A DNA stretch of 64,000 nucleotides, from positions 124,001 to 188,000 of the forward strand of contig NZ_BJVA01000002.1 in the NCBI RefSeq assembly GCF_007988905.1, in the 5' to 3' direction. Of the stretch, positions 28,297 to 63,676 are shown in pieces; position 1 is the stretch's first letter; each line of letters starts with the position of its first letter. The notes beneath the pieces were generated by a model, which ran no database searches, had not been told where the DNA came from, and saw nothing but the letters and a program-made list of their open reading frames with translations. The translations under genes and the position numbers were made by a program. The stretch is from Gluconobacter kanchanaburiensis NBRC 103587 (GTDB lineage Bacteria; Pseudomonadota; Alphaproteobacteria; Acetobacterales; Acetobacteraceae).

Positions 28297-29337
28297 TCAG
28301 CAGTAGCGGCGGTAAAACGCTTCCACGCGGGCTGCCGCAGTGGCGATCCGGTAACGCGACATATCCCATAGGCAAGCTGAAGACCCTTCCAGCCGTCGCA
28401 GCCCCTTCATCAGGTCTTCCAGACTGTCCGGAGCAAAAAGACAGTCCGGCATATCGCACAGGATGTCCTTCAGACCGCCGACCGCCGAAGCACAGACCGG
28501 AAGCCCCGCCTCCATCGCTTCCAGCAGCACCAGACCGAACGCCTCGTGACGCGACGGCACAACAAACGCGTCAAACGCCGCCAGCAGATCAGGCATATCC
28601 GTACGATACCCGGCGAAAACAATATCACGCCGTCCTGCTGCTTCCGCTTCCAGCGCCCTACGTTCCGGACCATCTCCCACCAGAACCAGCCGGGTGCCGG
28701 AACACAGAGCAGCCTGTTTCCAGGCCCGGATCAGAAACCCGAAGTTTTTCTCCGGCACCATGCGCCCTGCAGCCCCGATCACGACTGCTTCCGGGGAAAG
28801 ATTCCACTCCTGTCTCAGCTGTGTCCTGAGTTCAGCCCGCAGGAGGGGCGTGGACGAAGAAGGCAGTGTCCAGTTCGGAATGACCGCTGAAGCAGCACGT
28901 TGCCGTTCCGGCAGCCCTGCCTGCTGCCATGACGCCACACAAACAAGCCCGTCGTGAATACTGTAGCTGCGTCCGCGATAGTCTGTATGCAATGTGGCCA
29001 GAAGGGGAGCGCGCCCCGCCAGCCCCGCCCGTTTCAGCCAGCTTGCCCGGGCCGAGGCCCGCCCGAGATGGGTGTGGACGATATCATAGTGGCCGCTCCG
29101 CATCTCGCGCGCCAGTGTGCCCAGATATCCTGCGGCCCCTGCCCTGAGTATTCTTACACCCGGGCCGAGATAGCGGGTGATATCGCCACCCGTCCGAGGA
29201 TCGGCGGTCCTGCGTTCAAGCAGGAGCGTGACGTCATGAATCTGCGCCTGAATGGCTGTAAGTTCCGCAACATGACGCTCCGTCCCCGCGAATTCGCAGG
29301 TCGACAGACAGTGCAGAATTCTCAGTTGGGACGTCAC
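28297..29337 (-). CDS. Glycosyltransferase family 4 (GT-B)
   Basis: A protein of about 346 residues. The GTG at 29337 was chosen because it has AAGGA upstream and clears the previous gene; a GTG at 29424 would extend it. GT-B features include HVAELT, a nucleotide-sugar site VVIGAAGRMVPEKNFGFL and E-x7-E (SRHEAFGLVLLEAMEAGLP). It is probably cytoplasmic and acts on lipid-linked sugars or LPS. A membrane protein gene lies just upstream on the same strand. Donor and acceptor are unknown. Confidence 0.88.
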   Translation of the reverse strand: MTSQLRILHCLSTCEFAGTERHVAELTAIQAQIHDVTLLLERRTADPRTGGDITRYLGPGVRILRAGAAGYLGTLAREMRSGHYDIVHTHLGRASARASWLKRAGLAGRAPLLATLHTDYRGRSYSIHDGLVCVASWQQAGLPERQRAASAVIPNWTLPSSSTPLLRAELRTQLRQEWNLSPEAVVIGAAGRMVPEKNFGFLIRAWKQAALCSGTRLVLVGDGPERRALEAEAAGRRDIVFAGYRTDMPDLLAAFDAFVVPSRHEAFGLVLLEAMEAGLPVCASAVGGLKDILCDMPDCLFAPDSLEDLMKGLRRLEGSSACLWDMSRYRIATAAARVEAFYRRYC

Positions 29338-29371
29338 ACGCTGCGTTCCTTCCCGACGACGTGACGGGCCA

Positions 29372-29911
29372 TCAGGACCCGATCCGTCCCCCGGCACTCC
29401 ATACACCTTCGATAACAGTCCCACGACGGCCCGCCATGCGCTGACGAGGCGGGTGCGGCTGACAGGCCACGAGATAAAGCCCCACGGAGAACAGGATCAT
29501 GGAGATCGTGTTCAACTGATCGATCAGCCAGAAGGCGCCTGCCGGGGCGCCCATGTTCCGGAAGAACTGATAAGCCAGAAAACCAACGGAGAGCAGCCGC
29601 ATCGCCCGCAGCATGGGGCGGAGCGGGTTGAGCATTCCGGGGCGCACCATCGGCGCGGAGCGGCGCATCCCAAGAAAGAAGGCCAGACTGACGCCCCAGA
29701 TCAGGATGCCGTCAATCATCGTCCCGAGCGTGGCGCCGAACAACAGAACTGGCAGCAGGAGCGAAAGACCGTTCAGCATCAGCGCCCCAAGCTGACAACT
29801 CAGACCAAGATGCAAAGCCGTCAGGCGTTCGGGCAACCGGTCGGCCACGGACTGGAACAGATGATCGATCAGCCAGTCATCCATCCGGACAAGAGTTTGG
29901 GATAGGGTCAT
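29372..29911 (-). CDS. Predicted integral membrane protein, unknown function
   Basis: About 179 residues from an ATG at 29911. Three or four membrane helices are predicted: GLSLLLPVLLFGATLGTM, ILIWGVSLAFFLGM, LLSVGFLAYQFF and TISMILFSVGLYLVAC. It precedes the GT4 gene, 34 bp away, with which it is probably co-transcribed, so it may be part of the same envelope task. No family recognised. Confidence 0.65.
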   Translation of the reverse strand: MTLSQTLVRMDDWLIDHLFQSVADRLPERLTALHLGLSCQLGALMLNGLSLLLPVLLFGATLGTMIDGILIWGVSLAFFLGMRRSAPMVRPGMLNPLRPMLRAMRLLSVGFLAYQFFRNMGAPAGAFWLIDQLNTISMILFSVGLYLVACQPHPPRQRMAGRRGTVIEGVWSAGGRIGS

Positions 29912-30078
29912 TGCGGGAAGTCTAGCCAGCCCTCCGCTGCTCTGCACATATTTTTTTCTTCATGAAACGCCGGATGTGCGTCCAGAGAGCAGCCGTGAGA
30001 GGCCGATGCTGGACAGCGGCCGTTACAGACGGTTTACTTGCGACGACATCACGTTTTCCACTGGAAAGTCTCCGCTTC

Positions 30079-32815: not shown

Positions 32816-32849
32816 AAAAAAGGCCGCGGATTGCTCCGCGGCCTTTTTT
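32816..32849 (+). terminator. Rho-independent terminator after the M16 protease gene
   Basis: GGCCGCGGA and TCCGCGGCC pair around TTGC, flanked by AAAAAA and TTTTTT. It stands between the convergent protease and glycosyltransferase genes and can stop both strands. Confidence 0.92.
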
Positions 32850-32904: not shown

Positions 32905-33933
32905 TCAGCCGATCAGCCCCTCGTCCTTCAGAACGCGCAACGCATACTGGATACGATGCTTGTACAGATGTTCGGACTGCGTCCGGGCCTGTGCCTTGCG
33001 CGCCATCGTGACGCGCAGATCATTGTTCTCAAGATAGGTACCGACCAGCCGTTCGAAATCCACACGGTTGGAGAACACCGGGATCTCGTCTGCGGAATAG
33101 TAGCGACGGATCTCGTGCGTATCCTCATGGAAAACCTGAAACGCCCCTGCCAGCGCGGCTTCGAACGTCCGGGGTCCCGGCGTGGACGGCGCGATGATGA
33201 AACGCTTGTTCTCGAAGCTCAGCGAACGGCCAAGGTTCAGCACCAGCTTGGAACGGCGATAGAGTTCCACAAGCTGGGACTTCTCGATCCGGGCATCGGA
33301 GAACCCGATGCCCAGTTCACCCCAGCCCGGTCCCACGATCTTGATGTTCAGGTCCCGCAGGACCGGGAGAAGATTGCGAACGATGTCCTTGCGGTTGGTG
33401 AACGCCACACCGCAGAACAGAACGTCGATCGTCTTTTCCGAGTTCGCATCAATTTCGCCGTAATGCAGCTTCGGGCTGGCTGCCAGCGGCAGATGAAAGA
33501 CGCGCTCACGCTGGTAGAAATTGTGCCCCCAGCGGTCGCAGGAGAAAATCACGTCGAAATCGTCAGCAATGCGGTAGTTCGCATCCTGCTCATAGGGATC
33601 TTCCGTCGCCCAGAAGACCGTCACGGCACCGATCTTCTTCGCTTCACGGCAGACCTCACCGAAATATGTGCTTTCCGGCAGATAGGAACCAATGGCGAAA
33701 ACGATCGTCGGCTTCAGGATCCTGATGGAACTGGCAGCGGCCGAAATATGAACCGCCGTGACATTATCCTCACCGAAACAGTCCGCCCAGCCATCCATAA
33801 TGGATTCACGGATCTGCGCATTGGCCTGGCTTTCGTACCTACCTCCGCTGCAGACAAGAACCCGGCCGGTCAGGCTGGCATTTTTGCTCCGGTCTTTTGC
33901 CGGCTTCACGGCCGTTTCATTCACTGCGTCCAT
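32905..33933 (-). CDS. CgeB-family glycosyltransferase-like protein
   Basis: A 342-residue protein. The ATG at 33933 has AGGA 5 nt upstream. It resembles CgeB/DUF3880 proteins with a GT-B C-terminal half (PGPRTFEAALAGAFQV). Marker blocks such as VFWATEDP and FHLPLAASP recur in the first 320 residues of the protein at 36998-40345, showing that the two are paralogues. It is the last gene of a three-gene glycosyltransferase operon on the minus strand, 49 bp after the upstream gene. No signal or membrane helix is seen. Substrates unknown. Confidence 0.8.
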   Translation of the reverse strand: MDAVNETAVKPAKDRSKNASLTGRVLVCSGGRYESQANAQIRESIMDGWADCFGEDNVTAVHISAAASSIRILKPTIVFAIGSYLPESTYFGEVCREAKKIGAVTVFWATEDPYEQDANYRIADDFDVIFSCDRWGHNFYQRERVFHLPLAASPKLHYGEIDANSEKTIDVLFCGVAFTNRKDIVRNLLPVLRDLNIKIVGPGWGELGIGFSDARIEKSQLVELYRRSKLVLNLGRSLSFENKRFIIAPSTPGPRTFEAALAGAFQVFHEDTHEIRRYYSADEIPVFSNRVDFERLVGTYLENNDLRVTMARKAQARTQSEHLYKHRIQYALRVLKDEGLIG

Positions 33934-33982
33934 AACGTTCCTGTTCTCCCCAACCCTTCTTGACCGTTTTTTACCGGTCATG

Positions 33983-36973
33983 TCATGCAATGCAGGTCTT
34001 GATGATATCCGAAAGTTGCTGCCGGAACCGGACCGGAGAGCAATCACGTTCGATCGCACCGAGCGCCCCCTGCCGCAGATTTTCCCACAGTTCCCTGTCC
34101 TGATAAAGCCGCTCCACCGCATTCGCGAACGCCACAGGGTCGTTCGCGGGTGCAGCGAGCACCTCCATACCGTCCGCCCAACCCACTTCTTCGCGAAGGA
34201 GCGTCGTTACCACCTGCGGCAGACCATAGGAGGCGGCTTCATGAACCTTGAAAGGAATTCCCCCCGCAAAGCGGGTCGGCGCCACGAAGACCCGATGCCG
34301 GTCGAACAGTTCCCGCGGATCTCCGACTGGCCCCATGATCTCGACCCGGCTGTTTCCGGAAAAAACAGTCATGTCCACATCGGGGCCGACATAGCCCGCA
34401 ATCGTGAAATGAATTTCCGGCGGCAGCATCTGGTCCAGTAGCGGGAGTACGTCCTCCACGAACCAGATCAGACTGTCATGATTGGGAGAGCCTTCATCAT
34501 GGATCGCGCCGAAAAAGAGAATGTTGTGACGCGCCTCAAACGGAGCCGGGGTCGGCTGTGAGAAGAGCTCGTGTCCCAGCACGGAGACATGATCATAACC
34601 CGCACGGCGCACAAGATCCGCATCATGAGCGGTCACCGCAACGATACGCTGGCAGAATCTGGCACAGTCCAGTTCCTGATGAAGCATGTCGTCCAGACTG
34701 ATATCGGCTTCCGGCAACCCAAGAACCCTGATGCGCTCCAGTGTCCGGGGAGTCGCGATCACCTCGGTATCCAGAACCGGCCCCGCTGCTGGCAGGTAGC
34801 GATTCGACTCATTCAAGAGTGGCAGCAGACGCGCCATGTTATGCGTCCGGCCGATCCACAGAAGATCGTAGTAGCCGACGCGTTCCTGTAGAAAGTCAGC
34901 AAAGTCAGACAGATCCTGATCGACGATCAGCTCGACCGTTTCAGGAAAATCTCCAAACAGGTCAATCGCGGTCTGGTCACGGCGCATGATCGGAAAAACC
35001 GTGACCTGATATCCCAGCGCCGTCATTTCACGGATGATGTCGTTGGAGCGGACATATCCCGACCCCAGACGACGCAGCGGGAGACGATCCTCAATGAAAA
35101 GGATCCTCTTGCGCTGACTGATCCGGTGTTCCCGTCCCAGAACGGCGTTCCGGATATGGGCAGGCTGTTGGTAACGCAGGAAATCCTGCTGGAGCCGCGC
35201 AAAGGTCTTGAGATTGCCCTGAATCAGGGCATGCGAACCGGCAGCCCCCGAACTGCCGAACTCCAGATGCTCAATCGCCACACCGGGATCATAGACGATC
35301 CGCATTCCGGCCCGAATGATGCGCACGCACAGATCCGCATCTTCGAAATAGGCCGGCATGTAACGGGTATCGTATCCCCCGAGACGCCGCAGCAGGGCCG
35401 TTCTGACCATAAGGAAAGCAGCGGAACAGTAATCGACGTCCCGGACAAAATTCGCTGTTGTCAGATTGGGGTCATCTTCCCGCAGATACCCGTAGGTCGC
35501 TCCATCGCGCCAGATGATCGAACCCGCTTCCTGAAGATGCATGTTGGTCCGGATGAGCTTGCCGCCCACGGCCCCGATCCCCGCATCAGAGCGCAGACGT
35601 GCGAGAGCATGGACAATGGCATCCGGATACAGGCGCACATCGTTGTTCAGATACAGGACAAAAGGCGCTTCCGCCTTTTCAAGAGCAAGATTGCACCCCT
35701 GCAGATAACCGATGTTATGCCGATATCGCAGGATCGTGGCGCCACGGACCATGCGCCCGATGTGACGCGTCTGGTCGTGGGAGCCCGAGTCCACCAGAAC
35801 AAGCTGGATGGCACCGGCGTAATTGGCCCGCAGGGACGCCAGCGCCTGCGCTGTCAGAGCGATCCGGTCATAAACGACCATCAGAACACTGACTTCTGGA
35901 ATGCCGTGGACCGTAAAATCCAGGGGATGCCGGACCAGCGACGGCAGAATGGCCTCGGCTTCACGCTCGAAAAGAATCCGGGAGTGTTCTTCCGGCAGTT
36001 CGGAAACTGAAGCAAGAGCAGCCATCCGTCCTTCGCCCAGCCCCGTCCGGCCCGCGACCAGATGCGCAAAAGCGCTGTCATACAAGCGATTGCGGACGTC
36101 GTTACGGACCTGTGTCTGCGCCAGATGCGCTGCCAGATCGACCCCTTCCTGGGGGATACGGCCTTCCTGCGCACCATAGCGCACGAAATGATCGTACCCG
36201 TTTCGGAAATAGCCATTCTCCAGAGACGGCACCATGTCGGGACTGGACTGGGCGTAATATTGCTCGGAGAAAAATTCCTGCGGATCGAAGAGCCTCGGCG
36301 TCTCGTTCGTCAGGTAGTGATGCAGGGCGCTCGAATACTGACCTGCGGCGATCTCCTGCCTGACTTCCGGATACCGCGTCAGATACCAGACCGGATCGAA
36401 ATACCATGATACGCGCCCCGCATCGGCGACATGCGCCGGCAGGCCGAGCCACGAGCTGAACAGGCCGATCCGGCTGTCAAAATGGTCGGGAAATGTCAGG
36501 GACAGTTCGCGGCAGAGTTCCTCATCAAAAAAGTGATGCCCGCGATAGTAATGGCTTTCCCCGGTTTCAAGGTAGTGATCGTAGCCATTACGAAAACCGT
36601 TTTCGTTGAAGAAACGCTGGGTCAGCTCGGGGTAGCGGCGGCGATAGCCGGGTTCGTCGAACAGCCAGTGCGGCGAATGGGTTTTGTACCCCGTCGCCAT
36701 GTAATGTTCGAACCCCGACGCCCAGTCCTCGCGGATCAGGCCCTGACGCACATCCTTATGGGCGTCCCGATACCACATTTCATCAAAGTAGCGGTTGGGA
36801 GAATGTCCGTAGCGCTGGCCCGTCTGCAGGTAGAACGCATACGGGTCTTCCTGCCCTTCCTCCCGCATCCAGTCCCGCACCTCGGGGTACCGCAACAGAT
36901 ACCACTGGGTATCGAAGCGGGACCACCGAGGCTCGCGGTTTTCCCTCACAGGCCTTGAAACACCATCGGACAT
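33983..36973 (-). CDS. Large modular glycosyltransferase: WYL-type repeats, GT2 and GT4-like domains
   Basis: A 996-residue protein with three parts. Residues about 18-275 hold about six repeats of FD..WYL..YPEVR...HYL..G type (FDTQWYLLRYPEVR and FDPVWYLTRYPEVR are the clearest). Residues about 358-600 form a GT2 domain (VSVLMVVYDRIALT, YLNNDVRLYPDA with the acidic motif). Residues about 650-996 form a GT-B domain (RILFIEDRLPLRRLGSGY, FFGAIHDEGSPNHDSL). Fused enzymes like this are found in glycan assembly loci. It is the middle gene of the operon. Acceptor unknown. Confidence 0.85.
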   Translation of the reverse strand: MSDGVSRPVRENREPRWSRFDTQWYLLRYPEVRDWMREEGQEDPYAFYLQTGQRYGHSPNRYFDEMWYRDAHKDVRQGLIREDWASGFEHYMATGYKTHSPHWLFDEPGYRRRYPELTQRFFNENGFRNGYDHYLETGESHYYRGHHFFDEELCRELSLTFPDHFDSRIGLFSSWLGLPAHVADAGRVSWYFDPVWYLTRYPEVRQEIAAGQYSSALHHYLTNETPRLFDPQEFFSEQYYAQSSPDMVPSLENGYFRNGYDHFVRYGAQEGRIPQEGVDLAAHLAQTQVRNDVRNRLYDSAFAHLVAGRTGLGEGRMAALASVSELPEEHSRILFEREAEAILPSLVRHPLDFTVHGIPEVSVLMVVYDRIALTAQALASLRANYAGAIQLVLVDSGSHDQTRHIGRMVRGATILRYRHNIGYLQGCNLALEKAEAPFVLYLNNDVRLYPDAIVHALARLRSDAGIGAVGGKLIRTNMHLQEAGSIIWRDGATYGYLREDDPNLTTANFVRDVDYCSAAFLMVRTALLRRLGGYDTRYMPAYFEDADLCVRIIRAGMRIVYDPGVAIEHLEFGSSGAAGSHALIQGNLKTFARLQQDFLRYQQPAHIRNAVLGREHRISQRKRILFIEDRLPLRRLGSGYVRSNDIIREMTALGYQVTVFPIMRRDQTAIDLFGDFPETVELIVDQDLSDFADFLQERVGYYDLLWIGRTHNMARLLPLLNESNRYLPAAGPVLDTEVIATPRTLERIRVLGLPEADISLDDMLHQELDCARFCQRIVAVTAHDADLVRRAGYDHVSVLGHELFSQPTPAPFEARHNILFFGAIHDEGSPNHDSLIWFVEDVLPLLDQMLPPEIHFTIAGYVGPDVDMTVFSGNSRVEIMGPVGDPRELFDRHRVFVAPTRFAGGIPFKVHEAASYGLPQVVTTLLREEVGWADGMEVLAAPANDPVAFANAVERLYQDRELWENLRQGALGAIERDCSPVRFRQQLSDIIKTCIA

Positions 36974-36997
36974 CAGGGCAAACCTCCCGCCTGCGGG

Positions 36998-39900
36998 TCA
37001 GGAAACGACTTTTTCCGCAAGCAGGCGCTCTGCCCGTTCGATGTTCCGGGATTGGACCTCCGCATGCTCCACGGACAGGACTGCGCCGTTGTCGAACGTC
37101 ACGGAAATATCCGTCATCCGCGACCCGAAAACATCTCCCACCACGTTGACGAGAACGAAGCGGTAGACGCCATCCAGCGGCCGCGCATAGCCTTCAAGCG
37201 GCATGAACTGACCGCTGAACCCCACACACAGAGGTGCATCGCGATGCACTGTGCCGACATCCATGCGTGAGACGCGCTCCATCGCAAAGAAGACGATGTC
37301 ATCACGGCTTTCCGAAACCAGGCCACCATAAATCTGTCCCGCACGGGACAAGTTCCGGAAGAACATCCAGCCACGAACCGACAGAGCCCCGTCCGGCTGC
37401 AGTTCGGATGGGGGATCACCAATCAGGCCACTAAAGCCATCAATGTAGTAATCGAGGCTTCCGGCCGTATAGGGATGCATCTGATGCTTACCGATCCCGG
37501 ACAGCTTGATACCGCGCATCAGACCATCACTGTGGGACACGCGCCGGAAATCGGAGAGGACGGTATCGTTGGACGGTGCAGAGCGGATGATCTTGTGAAT
37601 CTTACCGCCTTCGACCTCGATCTGCATAGGCGTGAGCTGGAACGCGCCCTGACCGTTGATCACGTTGATCAGGCCGATCCGGAAACGCCCTTCACACCAT
37701 TTACCGCGCAGAGCAACCTTGCCGGAGAAACCGGCACGACGAGGTGCATTGCCGAAAAGCTCCGCAATATCCGCACGGATCTCACGCTGGCATTCAAGGA
37801 AGATCATGGCGCTGTCAGCATCGTCGCCCAGCAACACCGCAAACATCTGCCCCGCGGAGCTGATGCCCGGAAGGATCATCCAGCCGCGAATATGGAATTC
37901 CGGCGCGCCCAGGAACGGCTCTTCCTCGATATCGGAAAAGACATGATGGCAGATGTCGTCAATGTAGCATTCCGCGCCTTGAACCGAGAACCAGTCGGTA
38001 ACGGGAACCGGCATTTCGACAGACAGGTCGCGAGCGGTCGGCGGATCGAAAATATGACGCGGCGGAGCCTGATGGCGCCAGGACGCATGCGGAAGCAAAT
38101 GGACCTGCCCGGCGTCAAGGCGGAGTTCCGACACGCCCATTTCCCGGCGGGGCGCCATATGGTGATAGAGGCTGAGCAGTTCGTCAGCGTAATCCCGGGC
38201 ATGCGTCCAGAGCGCCGGCGTGATGTTCTGCATGATGGTACGGCGGAGCGGTTCGGAGGAGCGCAGCAGTTCCAGACGCTCAAGCACCATGCTCGGACGG
38301 CTGATGGGTACCTTGAAGCCGTTGACGCCGTCCTCAACGCGATCCCCCAGTGCTCCCACATCGGTCACGATGGGGATCAGTCCGTTCTGCCAGGCTTCTG
38401 ACAGGGAGATGCAGTAGGTCTCGGGCCAGATGGAAAGGTTGAGTGCAACATCTGCGACCTTCAGCGCCTCGATATCACCCATATCGTAACGGCCATAGAT
38501 CTTGACATTCGGACGCGGGGTGGCGGTCAGAACGGCTTCATATTCCGGATGCACATATCCAAAAATATGAAAGACGAAATGATCCGGGTGGGCGATATCG
38601 ATCAGGTTCAGAATCGTATCGGCGCCTTTGGTCCGCAGGAAGTTCCCGACAATGGCGACGCCCAGCGGACGGTCCCCCAGCGGCTCGTAAGGCTTCATCA
38701 GAACCGGGACAGTGTTGTCCGGGCTCGGGATCCCCATCACCAGACTGCGCTTGGTATCGAGAACCGGATAGATCTCGTGCGTCAGATCCCGCGAATGGAC
38801 CGTGCCAAACAGGATGGCATCAACGGAATGCAGCATCTTGGCCACGAAGGCGCGTCGGGTCTGCTCGCCGCCGTGATCAACGTTTTCCGACGCCTTGAGC
38901 GTGATGTCGGCAGCGAGAACGGAGCGCACCTCGTCTTCGACGTAACGGAGTTCATGGTTGAGCAGGTTGTAGCGGGCCGAGAGCAGCCAGAAATCATGGG
39001 CTGAGAAAATGACGCCCGCACCATTAGCCTTCGCAATGATGGGCAGGGACAGCGCATGATGACCCAGATGCTGGAAATGAACGATGTCGATATTGTACTG
39101 GCTGATAACGCTCGAAAACGACATTTCCTCGGGCGAATCGCACAGAGCATCCTGCCAACCCACTTCCGGCACGTCGAAACGTTCAAGCTCCTGCCCGTTG
39201 GCCGTCGTGAGGCGGCAGAAATTGCCGCGACGCAGCCAGTAGAAATATTCCACATCCCGCGACAGAAGTGTGCACAGACCCTGCTGGTAGACTTCCACGC
39301 CACCCCATGCCTGTTCATGGATAGTGGAGTGCGTGCACATCAGAACCCGCAGTCGCCGACGGCGGCGCAGCGGAGCAGGCGGCTCGGCGTGACGTCCGAA
39401 ATCTGCACCCGTAATGTCACGCATCTTCTGGAGCCTGTGCTCATAGAGATGCTGGGACAGGACAGACTTCTGAGCAGCCAGTGCCGCGGTGCGACGCGCC
39501 CCCTTCTGCTGGAGAAGCTTAGCGATGGCGTCCACGACCTGATTGGCGTCACGCGCAAGGGCAATGCCATTTACGGTCTCGAAATGCTCGGCCCCCATGC
39601 TTTCCGGCGCCTCCACGACCTGTGCCGCACCCGCGAGTGCCAGTTCGAAAAAGCGCGGTCCCGGTGCGGTCGCCTGACTGACATCTCCATGACTGGCATA
39701 GTCGCGGAACATCGTCAGGGTGACGGCGCTGACATTCGCAAAATCGATGAAGGCTTCGTGGCTGATCGGGCGCTGGATGGCTAACGCAGCCAGATCTGCC
39801 GGAAGGGGCGGCAAGAACTCATTTGTGGGGCAAACAAGCTTCAGCCGGGCATCGGGAAATGCAGCGATGACCTTGCGCAGGGTATGGACCCGATTCGGCC

Positions 39901-40345
39901 ACATCGTTCCAGCGAAGAAAATATCATATTCCAGCTCGGCGGCAGGAAGAACGCTGCGCTCATGAATCGACGGACTGGCGGCGAGCGGGAGATAATGCCC
40001 CTTGCCGTGATAGTGCTCGGCGCAAGAGGGATCGTTGGTGAAGACGTAGTCGAAGAGTTCAGCATTCTCGACGTTGAAATCCCGCATGAACGGATCTTCG
40101 AACGTCCAGAGAACCATGGTCTTGAAGGCAGGGCGCACGCGACGAATCAGCGGCAGGTTGATTCTCTGGGCGTCCAGGCAGATCAGAACGTCATGCTCGC
40201 CAGCGGCTGCGATGCCTGCCAGGCTCATGTTGTCAGCGACAACGACCTGCTCCTTGCCGAAGAGCGTCTGAGCCGCCCTCTGGACGGCTAGCGTCAGATA
40301 GGAATTGGGATTGTGGGTATAATTCGTATTGTAAATGACCGCCAT
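36998..40345 (-). CDS. Large modular glycosyltransferase: CgeB-like, GT4 and tandem C-terminal domains
   Basis: An 1115-residue protein. The ATG at 40345 follows AGGAG and a short spacer. Residues 1-320 resemble CgeB (VLWTFEDP, PGPRFFELALAGAAQV). Residues about 333-720 are a GT4 domain (GGVEVYQQGLC, VGNFLRTKGADTIL, PETYCISLSEAWQNGLIP). Residues about 791-918 and 964-1091 are two copies of one domain with shared GWM, AGQ, GFSG and L(I/V)NV blocks, which I do not recognise. It is the first gene of the operon. It probably builds a surface or protein-linked glycan, which is inference. Confidence 0.83.
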   Translation of the reverse strand: MAVIYNTNYTHNPNSYLTLAVQRAAQTLFGKEQVVVADNMSLAGIAAAGEHDVLICLDAQRINLPLIRRVRPAFKTMVLWTFEDPFMRDFNVENAELFDYVFTNDPSCAEHYHGKGHYLPLAASPSIHERSVLPAAELEYDIFFAGTMWPNRVHTLRKVIAAFPDARLKLVCPTNEFLPPLPADLAALAIQRPISHEAFIDFANVSAVTLTMFRDYASHGDVSQATAPGPRFFELALAGAAQVVEAPESMGAEHFETVNGIALARDANQVVDAIAKLLQQKGARRTAALAAQKSVLSQHLYEHRLQKMRDITGADFGRHAEPPAPLRRRRRLRVLMCTHSTIHEQAWGGVEVYQQGLCTLLSRDVEYFYWLRRGNFCRLTTANGQELERFDVPEVGWQDALCDSPEEMSFSSVISQYNIDIVHFQHLGHHALSLPIIAKANGAGVIFSAHDFWLLSARYNLLNHELRYVEDEVRSVLAADITLKASENVDHGGEQTRRAFVAKMLHSVDAILFGTVHSRDLTHEIYPVLDTKRSLVMGIPSPDNTVPVLMKPYEPLGDRPLGVAIVGNFLRTKGADTILNLIDIAHPDHFVFHIFGYVHPEYEAVLTATPRPNVKIYGRYDMGDIEALKVADVALNLSIWPETYCISLSEAWQNGLIPIVTDVGALGDRVEDGVNGFKVPISRPSMVLERLELLRSSEPLRRTIMQNITPALWTHARDYADELLSLYHHMAPRREMGVSELRLDAGQVHLLPHASWRHQAPPRHIFDPPTARDLSVEMPVPVTDWFSVQGAECYIDDICHHVFSDIEEEPFLGAPEFHIRGWMILPGISSAGQMFAVLLGDDADSAMIFLECQREIRADIAELFGNAPRRAGFSGKVALRGKWCEGRFRIGLINVINGQGAFQLTPMQIEVEGGKIHKIIRSAPSNDTVLSDFRRVSHSDGLMRGIKLSGIGKHQMHPYTAGSLDYYIDGFSGLIGDPPSELQPDGALSVRGWMFFRNLSRAGQIYGGLVSESRDDIVFFAMERVSRMDVGTVHRDAPLCVGFSGQFMPLEGYARPLDGVYRFVLVNVVGDVFGSRMTDISVTFDNGAVLSVEHAEVQSRNIERAERLLAEKVVS

Positions 40346-40498: not shown

Positions 40499-40529
40499 CA
40501 AAAAAAGGGTCGCCGAAGCGACCCTTTTC
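40499..40529 (-). terminator. Rho-independent terminator of rpsA
   Basis: On the minus strand AAAAGGGTCGC pairs with GCGACCCTTTT around TTCG and runs into a T-tract, 50 bp after the rpsA stop. Confidence 0.93.
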
Positions 40530-59079: not shown

Positions 59080-59916
59080 TTACAGATCGGCCCAGCCGAT
59101 GCGGGCGACCCCATACCGGTCGAATGCCTCCCGCACAGCCGGGTCCAGAAGGGCGGCCAGTTCGCCCTCCTGCTCATAGCCCGGCATGAAACGCTTCATC
59201 ATGGCGTCCTGAGCCGTGGCGGGGTGAAAGTAGATTTCGCTCGTGCCCGTGGGCAGGCGCGGAACAAGACTGCGGATATGGTCCGGCGTCATATGGCCGG
59301 ACCAGCGCAGCCCGAAACACCAGTCATTGGTTTTCAGCCCCGCTTTGCGAATCTGATGCCGCAGCACGCCGATCCAGTGGCGTAGGGCGCGGTCTCCCAA
59401 CGTATCGTTGGCCTCGACAGGCTCCGGCGGCTCGAAGGGCGAGCGGACAGCCCGTAATCCATGCTCCAGGCCGGACTCGATCAGGAATCGTCCCACCGTC
59501 GGATGCAAATGCATGTGTTTATGGGCGTTGGCGTGATCGAGCGCTAACCCGCTTGCGACAAAATTACGGAACTGGGCTTCGATTTCGCGCCGCAGGGCAC
59601 TCCGAGCCTGCGGGCTGAAGAAATACTCCACGCCAAGGCGCAATTGGTTGCGCCCAAACCAGCCCTGCTCGTCCGTAATGGCAGGCAGATCGAGGACGGA
59701 CTTGCCCTCGATCGCCACCACATGCAATCCGACTCTCAGATCCGGCATCGTCTTCGCACGTCGGATGGCATCCTCGGCCGCATCTCCGGCAACCATCAGA
59801 CTGGCCGTGGACAGGATCCCGTTTCGATGGGCCTGTTCAATGGCCTCGTTGACTTCAAAACTCATACCGAAATCGTCGGCGGACACGATGGCGCGGCGCA
59901 GGGAGCTGGATGTCAT
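59080..59916 (-). CDS. hpnK: Hopanoid biosynthesis protein HpnK (YdjC-like deacetylase fold)
   Basis: A 278-residue protein of the YdjC/polysaccharide-deacetylase-like fold. Metal residues are in IVSADDFGMS and in DHANAHKHMHLHP, the usual HpnK motif. HpnK acts in hopanoid side-chain modification, probably deacetylating the N-acetylglucosaminyl-hopane made by HpnI, before HpnJ makes the cyclitol ether. The start ATG is 59916, with ATG 59928 also possible. A terminator-like hairpin sits just upstream. Confidence 0.92.
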   Translation of the reverse strand: MTSSSLRRAIVSADDFGMSFEVNEAIEQAHRNGILSTASLMVAGDAAEDAIRRAKTMPDLRVGLHVVAIEGKSVLDLPAITDEQGWFGRNQLRLGVEYFFSPQARSALRREIEAQFRNFVASGLALDHANAHKHMHLHPTVGRFLIESGLEHGLRAVRSPFEPPEPVEANDTLGDRALRHWIGVLRHQIRKAGLKTNDWCFGLRWSGHMTPDHIRSLVPRLPTGTSEIYFHPATAQDAMMKRFMPGYEQEGELAALLDPAVREAFDRYGVARIGWADL

Positions 59917-59929
59917 GGCAGGTCTCATG

Positions 59930-59960
59930 AAAAAGGGGCCATGACATGCGCCATGGCCCC
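59930..59960 (-). terminator. Intercistronic terminator-like hairpin between hpnJ and hpnK
   Basis: GGGGCCATG and CATGGCCCC (9-bp perfect arms) enclose 8 nt and are followed on the minus strand by TTTTT. It lies 13-44 bp before the hpnK start, after hpnJ. It can act as a partial terminator that lowers hpnK relative to hpnIJ. Confidence 0.75.
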
Positions 59961-59989
59961 TAGGTAGCAATTCGTCAGGCGCGCACCGT

Positions 59990-61414
59990 TCAGGCGGCGT
60001 GACGGTCCTTGAGGAACTGGAAGAACTCCACACCTTCGCGCAGACGACGCTTCATCATCTGCGGGCTGCGGATCATCTCGTTGACGATGGAGGCGATCTT
60101 GGAACCGCGGAAGTAGAACTTGCGATAGAATTCCTCGACGCTCTCGAAGATTTCCGTATGCGACAGGTGCGGGTAATGCAGCGGTGCGATCTGCACGCCG
60201 CTCTCGTCGATCAGTTCGGCTTCCGCTTCGTTCAGCCAGCCATTTTCCGTCGCCTGCTTGTGCAGGAAGGTGCCCGGATAAGGCGCAGCCAGCGAAACCT
60301 GCAGGGTATGCGGGTTGATTTCCTTGGCGAACTGGATCGTCTCCTGGATGGTCTCCTTCGTCTCGCCCGGCAGGCCGACGATGAAGGTTCCATGGATCTT
60401 GATGCCCAGCTTGTGACAGTTGCGCGTAAACTCCTTGGCCGTCTCGACCAGCATACCCTTCTTGATGTTGTGAAGGATCTGCTGGTTGCCGCTTTCGTAA
60501 CCGACCAGCAGCAGGCGCAGACCGTTTTCCTTGAGAACCTTCAGGGTCTCGTAAGGAACATTGGCCTTGGCATTGCAGGACCATGTAACGCCGAGCTTGC
60601 CCATTTCGCGGGCAATGGCTTCGGCGCGCGGCAGGTCGTCCGTGAAGGTATCATCATCGAACATGAATTCCTGCACTTCGGGGAAGTACTGCTTGGCCAG
60701 ACGCACTTCAGCGGCCACGTGCTCGGGGCTGCGGGTCCGGTAGCGATGGCCGCCAACCGTCTGCGGCCACAGGCAGAACGTGCAGCGCGACTTACAGCCA
60801 CGGCCCGTATAGATCGAGATGTAGGGGTGCTTCAGATAACCGATGAAGTAATCGTTGATGTTGAGGTCACGCTTGTAGACCTCGGTTACGAACGGCAGGC
60901 TATCCATATCCTCGATCATCGCGCGATCCTTGTTCGCGACGATCTCGCCCTTCTCGTTCCGCCAGGTGATGCCGTCCACTTCCGCAAGCGGCTTGCCTTC
61001 GGCGATTTCCTTGATGGTGAAGTCGAACTCGTTGCGGGCCACGAAGTCGATCGGGCTACCCTTCTCCATGCTCTCGGTCGGCTGAACAGCCACCTTCGCA
61101 CCGACCATGCCAATCATGATCTTCGGATTGGCATCCTTGATCATCTGCGCCACGCGAACATCGGAAGCGAAGGACGGCGTGGACGTGTGGATCACGACGA
61201 GGTCGCGATTCTTCACATCCTCAAGGATGGGGTCCATGCCCATCTTGGCCGGCGGCGCATCAATCAGGCGCGATCCGGGAACAAGAGCGGCCGGCTGGGC
61301 CAGCCATGTCGGAAACCAGAAGGACTTGATCTCGCGCTTCGCCTGATAGCGGGAGCCAGCGCCACCATCGAAGCCGTCGAAGGAAGGAGGCTGGAGAAAA
61401 AGGGTTCTCATCAT
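59990..61414 (-). CDS. hpnJ: Hopanoid biosynthesis B12-type radical SAM protein HpnJ
   Basis: A 474-residue enzyme. The ATG at 61414 has AGGAG upstream and overlaps the hpnI stop. A B12-binding-like N-terminal half ends with HTSTPSFASDV and GMVGAKVAVQPT. The radical SAM 4Fe-4S motif CKSRCTFC is near residue 213, followed by the HpnJ features FDDDTFTDDLPRAEAIA. HpnJ contracts the glucosamine ring to make the bacteriohopanetetrol cyclitol ether. It completes hpnI-hpnJ-hpnK. Confidence 0.96.
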   Translation of the reverse strand: MMRTLFLQPPSFDGFDGGAGSRYQAKREIKSFWFPTWLAQPAALVPGSRLIDAPPAKMGMDPILEDVKNRDLVVIHTSTPSFASDVRVAQMIKDANPKIMIGMVGAKVAVQPTESMEKGSPIDFVARNEFDFTIKEIAEGKPLAEVDGITWRNEKGEIVANKDRAMIEDMDSLPFVTEVYKRDLNINDYFIGYLKHPYISIYTGRGCKSRCTFCLWPQTVGGHRYRTRSPEHVAAEVRLAKQYFPEVQEFMFDDDTFTDDLPRAEAIAREMGKLGVTWSCNAKANVPYETLKVLKENGLRLLLVGYESGNQQILHNIKKGMLVETAKEFTRNCHKLGIKIHGTFIVGLPGETKETIQETIQFAKEINPHTLQVSLAAPYPGTFLHKQATENGWLNEAEAELIDESGVQIAPLHYPHLSHTEIFESVEEFYRKFYFRGSKIASIVNEMIRSPQMMKRRLREGVEFFQFLKDRHAA

Positions 61415-62622
61415 GATCGAACACTCCTGTGGGTGGCGTCGGCCTGGAGCGAGGTGGCGCCGGACGCGGAATTTCGTTTTCTTCGGGCGATATGGACCGT
61501 TCTGCCCCGCCATGCAACGCGTGATCCGCGCGCACTGCCGACCATGATGGCTGCGGACAACCAATCACGAACAGGCAGAAGAAGGATCGCAGCAGGCAGC
61601 GGGCAGGACGTCGCACGGTCGACAATGCTACTGCCAAAAGCCCGCACAAGCCATGTGAGAGCCAGCAGAAACCATGTCCACCAGGCATTGGGACGGAAAA
61701 GAACAGCCGTAACAGCCCAGAACAGCGGAAGCTGGATCGCGGACAGCCCGTAACCGACGGGCGCGACGTTCTTGACCGTCCTGCCCCAGCGCAACTCATG
61801 CGCGAGGAGATCACTGAGCGTATGTTCGCCAACGGTCGTATGCGTCAGGCTGGGAGCAATGGCGATCGTCTCACCCCTCGCCCGGACAAGCTGCCCCAGT
61901 TCGGCGTCGTCGGCCACGTGATGGACAAGCGCCTCAAGCCCCCCAATCTCTTCGAGAACCTGTCGACGCAGGGCCATAGTGGCTCCCAGACAGTCCTGAC
62001 GCCCCAGAAAACGGGACATCATAACGCCTGGAAGGAAGTTGTGATTGATCTGGCAGGCCCCGATCTGCTGCACGAGACTCCCTTCCGCAGGTCGACCCGC
62101 GTAAAGGGTGGTGACCAGTCCTGTTCCGGGCTCTTCAAGGCTTGTCACGACATGCTTCAGATATCCGGGGCTGACATGAATATCCGAGTCGGAAATAACG
62201 AGAACATCGTGTCGGGCTTTCCCGTACATGTTCAACAGGTTGCCGACCTTGCGATTGGGACCATGTTCCCTCGGGTCAATGACTACGCTGACCGGAACAT
62301 GCGGATAACGGGTCCGCAGCCGCTCGATGACCGGCAGAGCGGTATCATCCGCATCCTGAACGCCGAAGACAATCTGGAAGTCGGGGTAGTCCTGCGTGAA
62401 GACGCTATCCAGCGCCTCCTCCAACAACGGCTCGTTACCGTGCAGAGGCTTCAGCACGGTAACCGGAGGCCATGATCTGTCAGACAGTTTCAGGCCGTCC
62501 TCGGCATTCCGCTCCGTACGGCGAAAACGGGCGAGAAGGGCAGCACCTGCCAGCGCCTGCAGGTTACCAGCGGCGGAGACACAGGCGCAGAAACCGGCCG
62601 CAATCGAGAGAGGTATGGACAC
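61411..62622 (-). CDS. hpnI: Hopanoid biosynthesis glycosyltransferase HpnI
   Basis: A 403-residue GT2-family membrane enzyme that adds a sugar to bacteriohopanetetrol. It starts with GTG at 62622. Membrane helices lie near residues 5-25 and in the last 100 residues (AIQLPLFWAVTAVLF and WTWFLLALTWLVRAF). GT2 motifs are PVTVLKPLHGNEPLLEEAL, FGVQDADDTALPVI, VISDSDIHVSPGYL and AELGQLVRARG. Its stop overlaps the hpnJ start. The last 45 residues are Arg-rich. Confidence 0.93.
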   Translation of the reverse strand: MSIPLSIAAGFCACVSAAGNLQALAGAALLARFRRTERNAEDGLKLSDRSWPPVTVLKPLHGNEPLLEEALDSVFTQDYPDFQIVFGVQDADDTALPVIERLRTRYPHVPVSVVIDPREHGPNRKVGNLLNMYGKARHDVLVISDSDIHVSPGYLKHVVTSLEEPGTGLVTTLYAGRPAEGSLVQQIGACQINHNFLPGVMMSRFLGRQDCLGATMALRRQVLEEIGGLEALVHHVADDAELGQLVRARGETIAIAPSLTHTTVGEHTLSDLLAHELRWGRTVKNVAPVGYGLSAIQLPLFWAVTAVLFRPNAWWTWFLLALTWLVRAFGSSIVDRATSCPLPAAILLLPVRDWLSAAIMVGSARGSRVAWRGRTVHIARRKRNSASGATSLQADATHRSVRS

Positions 62623-62680
62623 GACGGCTTTCTAACCTTCCCCAACACTTTTAGGAAAGGCTTCTGTCGCAGGGACACAC

Positions 62681-63358
62681 TCAGTCATGAAGGAAGTGTG
62701 CTGTCTTGCTGTCCAGATGATCGGCCAGTCCGCTGGCACCACCCTGACTCAGAGCACCACCGAAATCAGCACGCTGGGCAGCAACCTGACTGATATGCGC
62801 ATTCAGCAGGATGTCTGTAATGCGCCATCCCGAAGCACCATTGGTCATGATATAATCGATCGGCGTGACATCTCCACCATCAGTACCGCCAATGGTGGTA
62901 TCCACAATCTGCCCTCCTGTTGGATTGGGGCGGGTCTGCGGTAACACCGTGAAGACCACCTGCGATTCCGGCTTGAAAGACGACGCGTAGCGGGCGATCG
63001 TGAACTGGCGGAAAGAGCCAAGAAGCCGAGTGCGATCAGCCGGGCTGAGGCTATTATAGCGCACGCCGACCGACCGACGAAGAATCGTCTCAAGATCGAA
63101 GGCGTGGTCCACGGCGGGTGCAATCATCGTGGCGCGCTGCTGGGCCGTCTTGCCCGCCTTCTGGGCCGATTTCAGCGCTTCATACAGAGCAGCCACGGGG
63201 GCCGCAGCAGACGTCGTTTCGGCAGATGTCGCAGCGTTAGAAGCTGTCTGTGCAATGGCTTCCGGGAAAACCGCCTTCAGGGAAACCGGCGCCGCAAGAA
63301 GGCACACGGAAAGAAGGGACAATGTCACTTTCGGGGAAAAACGGCAAATCATGATCAC
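62681..63358 (-). CDS. hpnM: Hopanoid-associated lipid-binding protein HpnM (MlaC/Ttg2D-like)
   Basis: A 225-residue periplasmic protein of the MlaC family. The GTG at 63358 is favoured by AGGA 7 nt upstream; an ATG at 63352 is the alternative. A signal peptide (VTLSLLSVCLLAAPVSL) opens it. The mature part has the MlaC-type helices (DLETILRRSVGVRYNSL, LLGSFRQFTIARYASSF) and a strand with GWRITDILLN. It is thought to carry hopanoids or related lipids between membranes. It is the first gene of hpnM-hpnI-hpnJ-hpnK. Confidence 0.92.
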   Translation of the reverse strand: MIMICRFSPKVTLSLLSVCLLAAPVSLKAVFPEAIAQTASNAATSAETTSAAAPVAALYEALKSAQKAGKTAQQRATMIAPAVDHAFDLETILRRSVGVRYNSLSPADRTRLLGSFRQFTIARYASSFKPESQVVFTVLPQTRPNPTGGQIVDTTIGGTDGGDVTPIDYIMTNGASGWRITDILLNAHISQVAAQRADFGGALSQGGASGLADHLDSKTAHFLHD

Positions 63359-63676
63359 GCTTTCGTCCTGTAGGCGGTTCTTGGCACAGAGATCGTGTTC
63401 ATGACACACTGTATCAAGTTCCGAAGATCAAGTTCTGGCTTCCATAGATCCATCTGTGCTCGATTAGCCACAGGGCTGACGCGAATTATGCAGCCTGACA
63501 TTGAGGCGAACACGACAATGGGTCTATAGGCAGTCAATCCAATGCTCGATGGTCCTTCGTTTTTCCCGGTTTTTTTAGGACCGGGACAGGGAAGACAGCC
63601 ACGGGCCATCCAAGATGTAAAAGGCTCCGGGTGCCCTTACGGGCGCCGCACCGGAAACTAGAACCAGAGGATTATA
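63359..63676. promoter_or_regulatory. Divergent hpnM/hpnH control region with two hairpins
   Basis: This 318-bp gap has no gene. It holds an inverted repeat with CCCGGT/ACCGGG arms (63565-63570 and 63580-63585) around 9 nt. Nearer hpnH there is a longer stem with CCGG at 63627-63630 and CCGG at 63651-63654, containing GCCC-TTAC-GGGC. The second is in the hpnH leader, ending 22 nt before its start. Both could affect hpnH or hpnM; roles are inference. Confidence 0.5.

Follow-up and report, generated by a model that had tools for sequence, protein, structure and literature searches.

An operon of three glycosyltransferase genes (gC, gB, and gA) in Gluconobacter kanchanaburiensis NBRC 103587 appears to be undescribed, and sequence comparisons indicate that it really consists of two obligate partners, gA and gC, and an exchangeable gB. 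With a probability of roughly 0.45, its products assemble a short glycan of the envelope stepwise in the cytoplasm, the acceptor being most likely the LPS core. The operon is most likely a variant, specific to its lineage, of a type of envelope glycan cluster that is already familiar.

The operon lies on the minus strand of the window, the 64,000-nucleotide stretch of contig NZ_BJVA01000002.1 that was analyzed. It is transcribed in the order gC (36998..40345, 1115 aa from an ATG at 40345), gB (33983..36973, 996 aa), and gA (32905..33933, 342 aa from an ATG), with gaps of 24 bp between gC and gB and 49 bp between gB and gA; the open reading frames, lengths, and coordinates all match the original prediction. 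On its flanks are rpsA and a convergent gene encoding an M16 peptidase. A strong minus-strand terminator hairpin follows rpsA, between this gene and gC (40502..40529), and a second strong one, an inverted repeat with A/T tails and no strand assigned, separates gA from the M16 gene (32816..32849). The dN/dS values of gA, gB, and gC (0.035-0.10) reveal strong purifying selection, and the three are therefore selected genes rather than chance open reading frames. The closest named loci to gC are those of Gluconobacter species (91-92% protein identity).

The neighbors of the operon are aroA, cmk, rpsA, and the M16 peptidase gene. Both in the window, as had been predicted, and in the syntenic loci that were read, genes for a polymerase, a flippase, or export are absent beside it. 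All three proteins lack hydrophobic stretches suggestive of a membrane span, and such a stretch is present in the neighboring protein encoded at 29372-29947. The latter is a 191-aa probable membrane protein without a Pfam match, encoded with a GT4 gene after the M16 gene (28297-29947), and this pair is kept beside the M16 gene in Gluconobacter and Neokomagataea. Further along the window (59080-63409), there are open reading frames that resemble, by eye only, the hopanoid genes HpnK and HpnI and a secreted HpnM-like protein. A role of the operon in defense was rejected, since PADLOC gave no match.

The domain types proposed for the three proteins (CgeB-like, WYL-GT2-GT-B, and CgeB-GT4 with tandem domains) are supported by Pfam matches and by predicted models. 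According to Pfam, gA consists of DUF3880 and Glyco_trans_1_2, gB of GT2 and Glyco_trans_1_4, and gC of Glyco_trans_1_2 and Glycos_transf_1. The parts of gC are a CgeB-type GT-B domain (residues 1-314), a GT4 domain (330-733) with an EX7E motif (642-650), and two repeats (783-925 and 960-1096); those of gB are helical WYL-type repeats (about 20-310), a GT2 domain (360-570), and a GT4 domain (620-996). Judged by sequence, residues of catalytic type are kept in these enzymes: E642 and E650 of the EX7E motif are invariant in 23 orthologues of gC, and N443 N444 D445, E544, and D547 are invariant in the GT2 domain of gB (PF00535, 45 bits).

The protein gA and the N-terminal domain of gC are paralogues (BLASTP, 27% over 244 aa, E 4e-23), as originally proposed on the basis of three motif blocks. 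Two of these blocks, WxxEDP and PGPRxFExALAGAxQV, are indeed common to both proteins, but the third, given as HLPLAASP, had to be corrected to LPLAASP, with gC reading HYLPLAASP. In a comparison with the CgeB/WaaS-CpsH type (PF13524, NF053598), gA and the gC N-terminal domain score above the curated cutoff of 25 bits for PF13524 (Glyco_trans_1_2; 94.7 and 58.2 bits, respectively) and are only weakly similar to NF053598 (18 and 26 bits, for a cutoff of 60). Moreover, gC differs from this type in adding a GT4 domain and two unclassified repeats.

In the predicted models of gC (mean pLDDT of 78) and gB (83), GT-B folds were found where expected. The closest matches to residues 330-733 of the gC model were the GT4 structures of WlaC, PglA, and BshA (Z of 25-26); among the matches of the GT4 folds, WaaG ranked lower than these. 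For residues 1-314 of gC, the best listed neighbor among solved structures was the alpha-glucosyltransferase AGT of phage T4 (Z of about 22, 304 residues, 3.3 A, 10% identity), a likeness of fold only, with no sign of a DNA acceptor. Residues 620-996 of the gB model matched GT4 enzymes with Z values up to 32, and residues 20-310 are predicted to be all helical. The C-terminal domains of gC, described as tandem in the original prediction, are repeats of one another (28% identity; hhalign 99.8%, E 1e-28). They are predicted to be beta-rich and beta-sandwich-like, are without a Pfam match throughout the 23 orthologues, and are covered by no match listed in the whole-model fold search.

In our survey of 200 evenly sampled Acetobacteraceae genomes, 32 from 19 genera carried gC, and the genomes carrying gA were precisely these 32 (Fisher test, P near 1e-37, taking genomes as independent; their relatedness makes this figure too strong). 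The two genes are linked in all 32 carriers, with a spacing of 2 to 96 bp in three genomes and of about 3.1-5.5 kb, with gB-sized DNA in between, in the remainder. Hence, the search for the three-gene order revealed homologues that are linked, not scattered singly. The order rpsA-gC-gB-gA(-M16) is found in Gluconobacter, Neokomagataea, Tanticharoenia, Saccharibacter, Bombella, Asaia, Acidomonas, and others, and in some of these lineages the gene after gA is not the M16 gene. In Acetobacter, the operon is at a different place and has the order gA-gB-gC, and in three species a GT32-like gene comes directly after gC. When 289 genomes from across the class were searched, gA-like genes (E < 1e-15) outside the family came from just two genomes, both belonging to one other family (G354 and G454); each lies beside a second CgeB-type gene, a paired arrangement with no telling neighbor. 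Genes of the operon are broken in genome G165 (L101), and gA is broken in G174 (C1:220774-221768). We rejected decay of the operon in G165, where the breaks are likely to be assembly errors because a neighboring gene, intact in the relative G086, is broken too; the broken copies of this genome do not enter the evidence.

The original prediction treated the three genes as one unit. They are conserved and linked, but gB is variable and only the gA-gC pair is constant. Across 22 loci, the correlation of protein distances is 0.964 between gA and gC, compared with 0.83-0.85 for each of them with aroA and 0.78-0.84 with gB. The mean distance is 0.28 for both gA and aroA and 0.45 for gB; thus, gA is as conserved as aroA across genera and gB much less so. 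The unit is best described as a pair, gA and gC, accompanied by a third enzyme that varies, because gB is missing, replaced, or enlarged in some lineages: it was not recovered beside the pair in G125, a distant GT2-GT4 homologue takes its place in G169, and it reaches 1690-1757 aa in G080 and G161. The gB of the Acetobacter operon groups with plasmid-borne relatives (support of 93/100). Plasmids of Komagataeibacter saccharivorans, Gluconobacter oxydans, and Acetobacter aceti carry gB-like genes (L091-L093; 38-41% identity over 98%), and no match to gA or gC was found with these genes. The gB of G053 has at its N terminus a copy of the C-terminal repeat of gC, a swap between the two partners.

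How might these enzymes work together? A soluble cytoplasmic set with up to five glycosyltransferase domains would add sugars one after another to an acceptor on the cytoplasmic side, giving a single short heteroglycan of fixed structure. The constant part of this glycan would be made by gA and gC, which would depend on each other in function and together have two paralogous CgeB-type domains and one GT4; gB, with its GT2 and GT4 domains, would add the part that varies from lineage to lineage. The likeliest acceptor would be the Ko/Kdo-lipid A core, and the product, an LPS core or outer core, would leave by the ordinary LPS route without a dedicated exporter. We infer all three elements, namely the sequential action of the enzymes, the gA-gC complex, and the LPS acceptor.

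The LPS core is the best single reading because KdtA is present throughout, because there is a precedent in Acinetobacter baumannii, and because relatives of gB occur in dTDP-rhamnose clusters. KdtA (PF04413), the Kdo transferase of LPS synthesis, was found in 28 of the 28 genomes searched. A product assembled directly on lipid A-core inside the cytoplasm needs none of the parts that are missing from some carriers. Among 27 carriers, the Wzy/WaaL/PglL-type family PF04932 was undetected in 5 (a ligase may be present even where no match is seen), ABC-2 (PF01061) in 5, and the Wzx-like PF01943 in 2. None of the three families was therefore found in every carrier, though divergent members could be missed. 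Several points weigh on the other side: no LPS-specific gene lies beside the operon, which is not near kdtA, and the LPS genes of the kdtA region in Gluconobacter and G157 showed no link to it. An LPS core common to the whole family is excluded because 168 of the 200 Acetobacteraceae lack gA and gC. These data agree with the original proposal of a self-standing cytoplasmic system for protein or lipid glycosylation as regards the lack of a membrane span, of an adjoining export gene, and of a universal export or ligase family, but not as regards a system of three genes, as the constant core is gA-gC with an exchangeable gB.

The precedent is the LOS outer-core locus (OCL) of A. baumannii, where GtrOC21 combines Glyco_trans_1_2 with DUF3880 and other enzymes belong to Gly_transf_sug, GT2, and GT4 (PMC10327509). 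This mix of families is like that of the operon, GtrOC21 has the architecture of gA, and a lipid-linked core glycan is made there without a linked polymerase or flippase, neighbors that the operon also lacks. However, the OCL is a variable locus of single-domain enzymes in another class, whereas the enzymes here are fused and multidomain, they are encoded in a single operon that is near invariant, and their LPS acceptor is putative. The dTDP-rhamnose clusters are carried by plasmids of Azospirillum argentinense and Roseomonas gilardii. Their gB-like glycosyltransferases have 29-38% identity to gB, over 96% in the Azospirillum relative and over the GT2 and GT4 part only in that of Roseomonas. 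Both loci contain nucleotide-sugar genes and that of Azospirillum also ABC transporter genes, all lacking in the operon, and neither showed a gA or gC match. No named polysaccharide locus matching the operon was found, and with its homologues linked, the view that it is undescribed survives both of the refuting conditions set in the original prediction.

Somewhat unlikely, in our assessment, is that gA, gC, and gB glycosylate a protein in the cytoplasm before its export, most plausibly a substrate of a conserved type I secretion system. A protein acceptor deserves consideration because all the carriers read (20 of 20) have a type I secretion locus that is syntenic and includes its own glycosyltransferases. 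In the G. kanchanaburiensis genome, this locus (L104; contig C12, about 19.6-30.7 kb) encodes HlyB, HlyD, a Sel1-repeat protein, a 987-aa TPR-GT2-GT4 protein, a 344-aa protein with only a ChW match (P344), and a GT4. P344 is present in 31 of the 32 gC carriers and in 106 of the 168 noncarriers (Fisher test, P = 4e-5, uncorrected for phylogeny). Yet this means that the type I locus is common without the operon (P344 in 137 of the 200 family genomes), and type I secretion as a specific partner, striking at first, became only a weak lead. A GT32-like gene adjoins the type I locus in Gluconobacter, and the gene directly after gC in Acetobacter species is a 42% identical relative of it; the operon and the type I locus themselves are never adjacent. 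No secretion or substrate gene adjoins the operon, with which the type I locus co-occurs unlinked, and the surroundings of both yielded no conserved substrate protein. Elsewhere in the same genome (L105; C3, 10942-18463), a 460-aa RTX-repeat protein is encoded between two glycosyltransferase-like open reading frames (906 and 1066 aa).

Protein O-GlcNAc transferases such as GtfA are also among the fold matches of the predicted gC model, which may point to a protein acceptor. In streptococci, GtfA and GtfB are O-GlcNAc transferases acting as a cytoplasmic pair. Their domains differ from those of gA and gC, the operon has no serine-rich repeat adhesin or SecA2 locus, and the corresponding gA-gC complex is putative. 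The broadest version of this explanation is an undescribed system in which the gA-gC pair, the exchangeable gB, and the GT32-like enzyme decorate the proteins exported by the glycosyltransferase-bearing type I locus; we consider it decidedly improbable.

It is also unlikely that the operon serves an exported polysaccharide (O-antigen, capsule, or pellicle) by making its chains or repeat units, with a flippase or ABC exporter encoded elsewhere. Such a role would be in line with the dTDP-rhamnose clusters holding gB relatives, one of them with ABC transporter genes, and with the presence of some Wzx-like, ABC-2, or Wzy-like gene in most carriers. Nevertheless, in no lineage read is a priming transferase or an exporter linked to the operon, which survives in genomes of 1.9-2.2 Mb without detectable PF04932, and the incomplete occurrence of all three export and ligase families argues in the same direction. 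Flagellin glycosylation, performed elsewhere by multidomain glycosyltransferases encoded near flagellar genes, is extremely improbable and was rejected, since 11 of the 27 carriers searched keep the operon without a flagellin gene. In these searches, the operon thus behaves as independent of flagellin and of every family for polysaccharide export or ligation that was sought.

Fruit, vinegar, and insect guts are habitats of acetic acid bacteria. Adhesion and immune recognition in these places are decided by the cell surface, and the genes for surface glycans are poorly assigned in these bacteria. A transposon collection exists in a tractable host (PMC8602642, PMC12041372), and the operon provides a ready set of knockout targets there; the main texts of the G. 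oxydans knockout papers do not mention CgeB-type genes. Bombella and its relatives, bee symbionts with small genomes, keep the operon. Because it is retained in genomes of 1.9 Mb and is conserved like aroA, its product is likely to be a surface glycan that is important in the niche of these bacteria.
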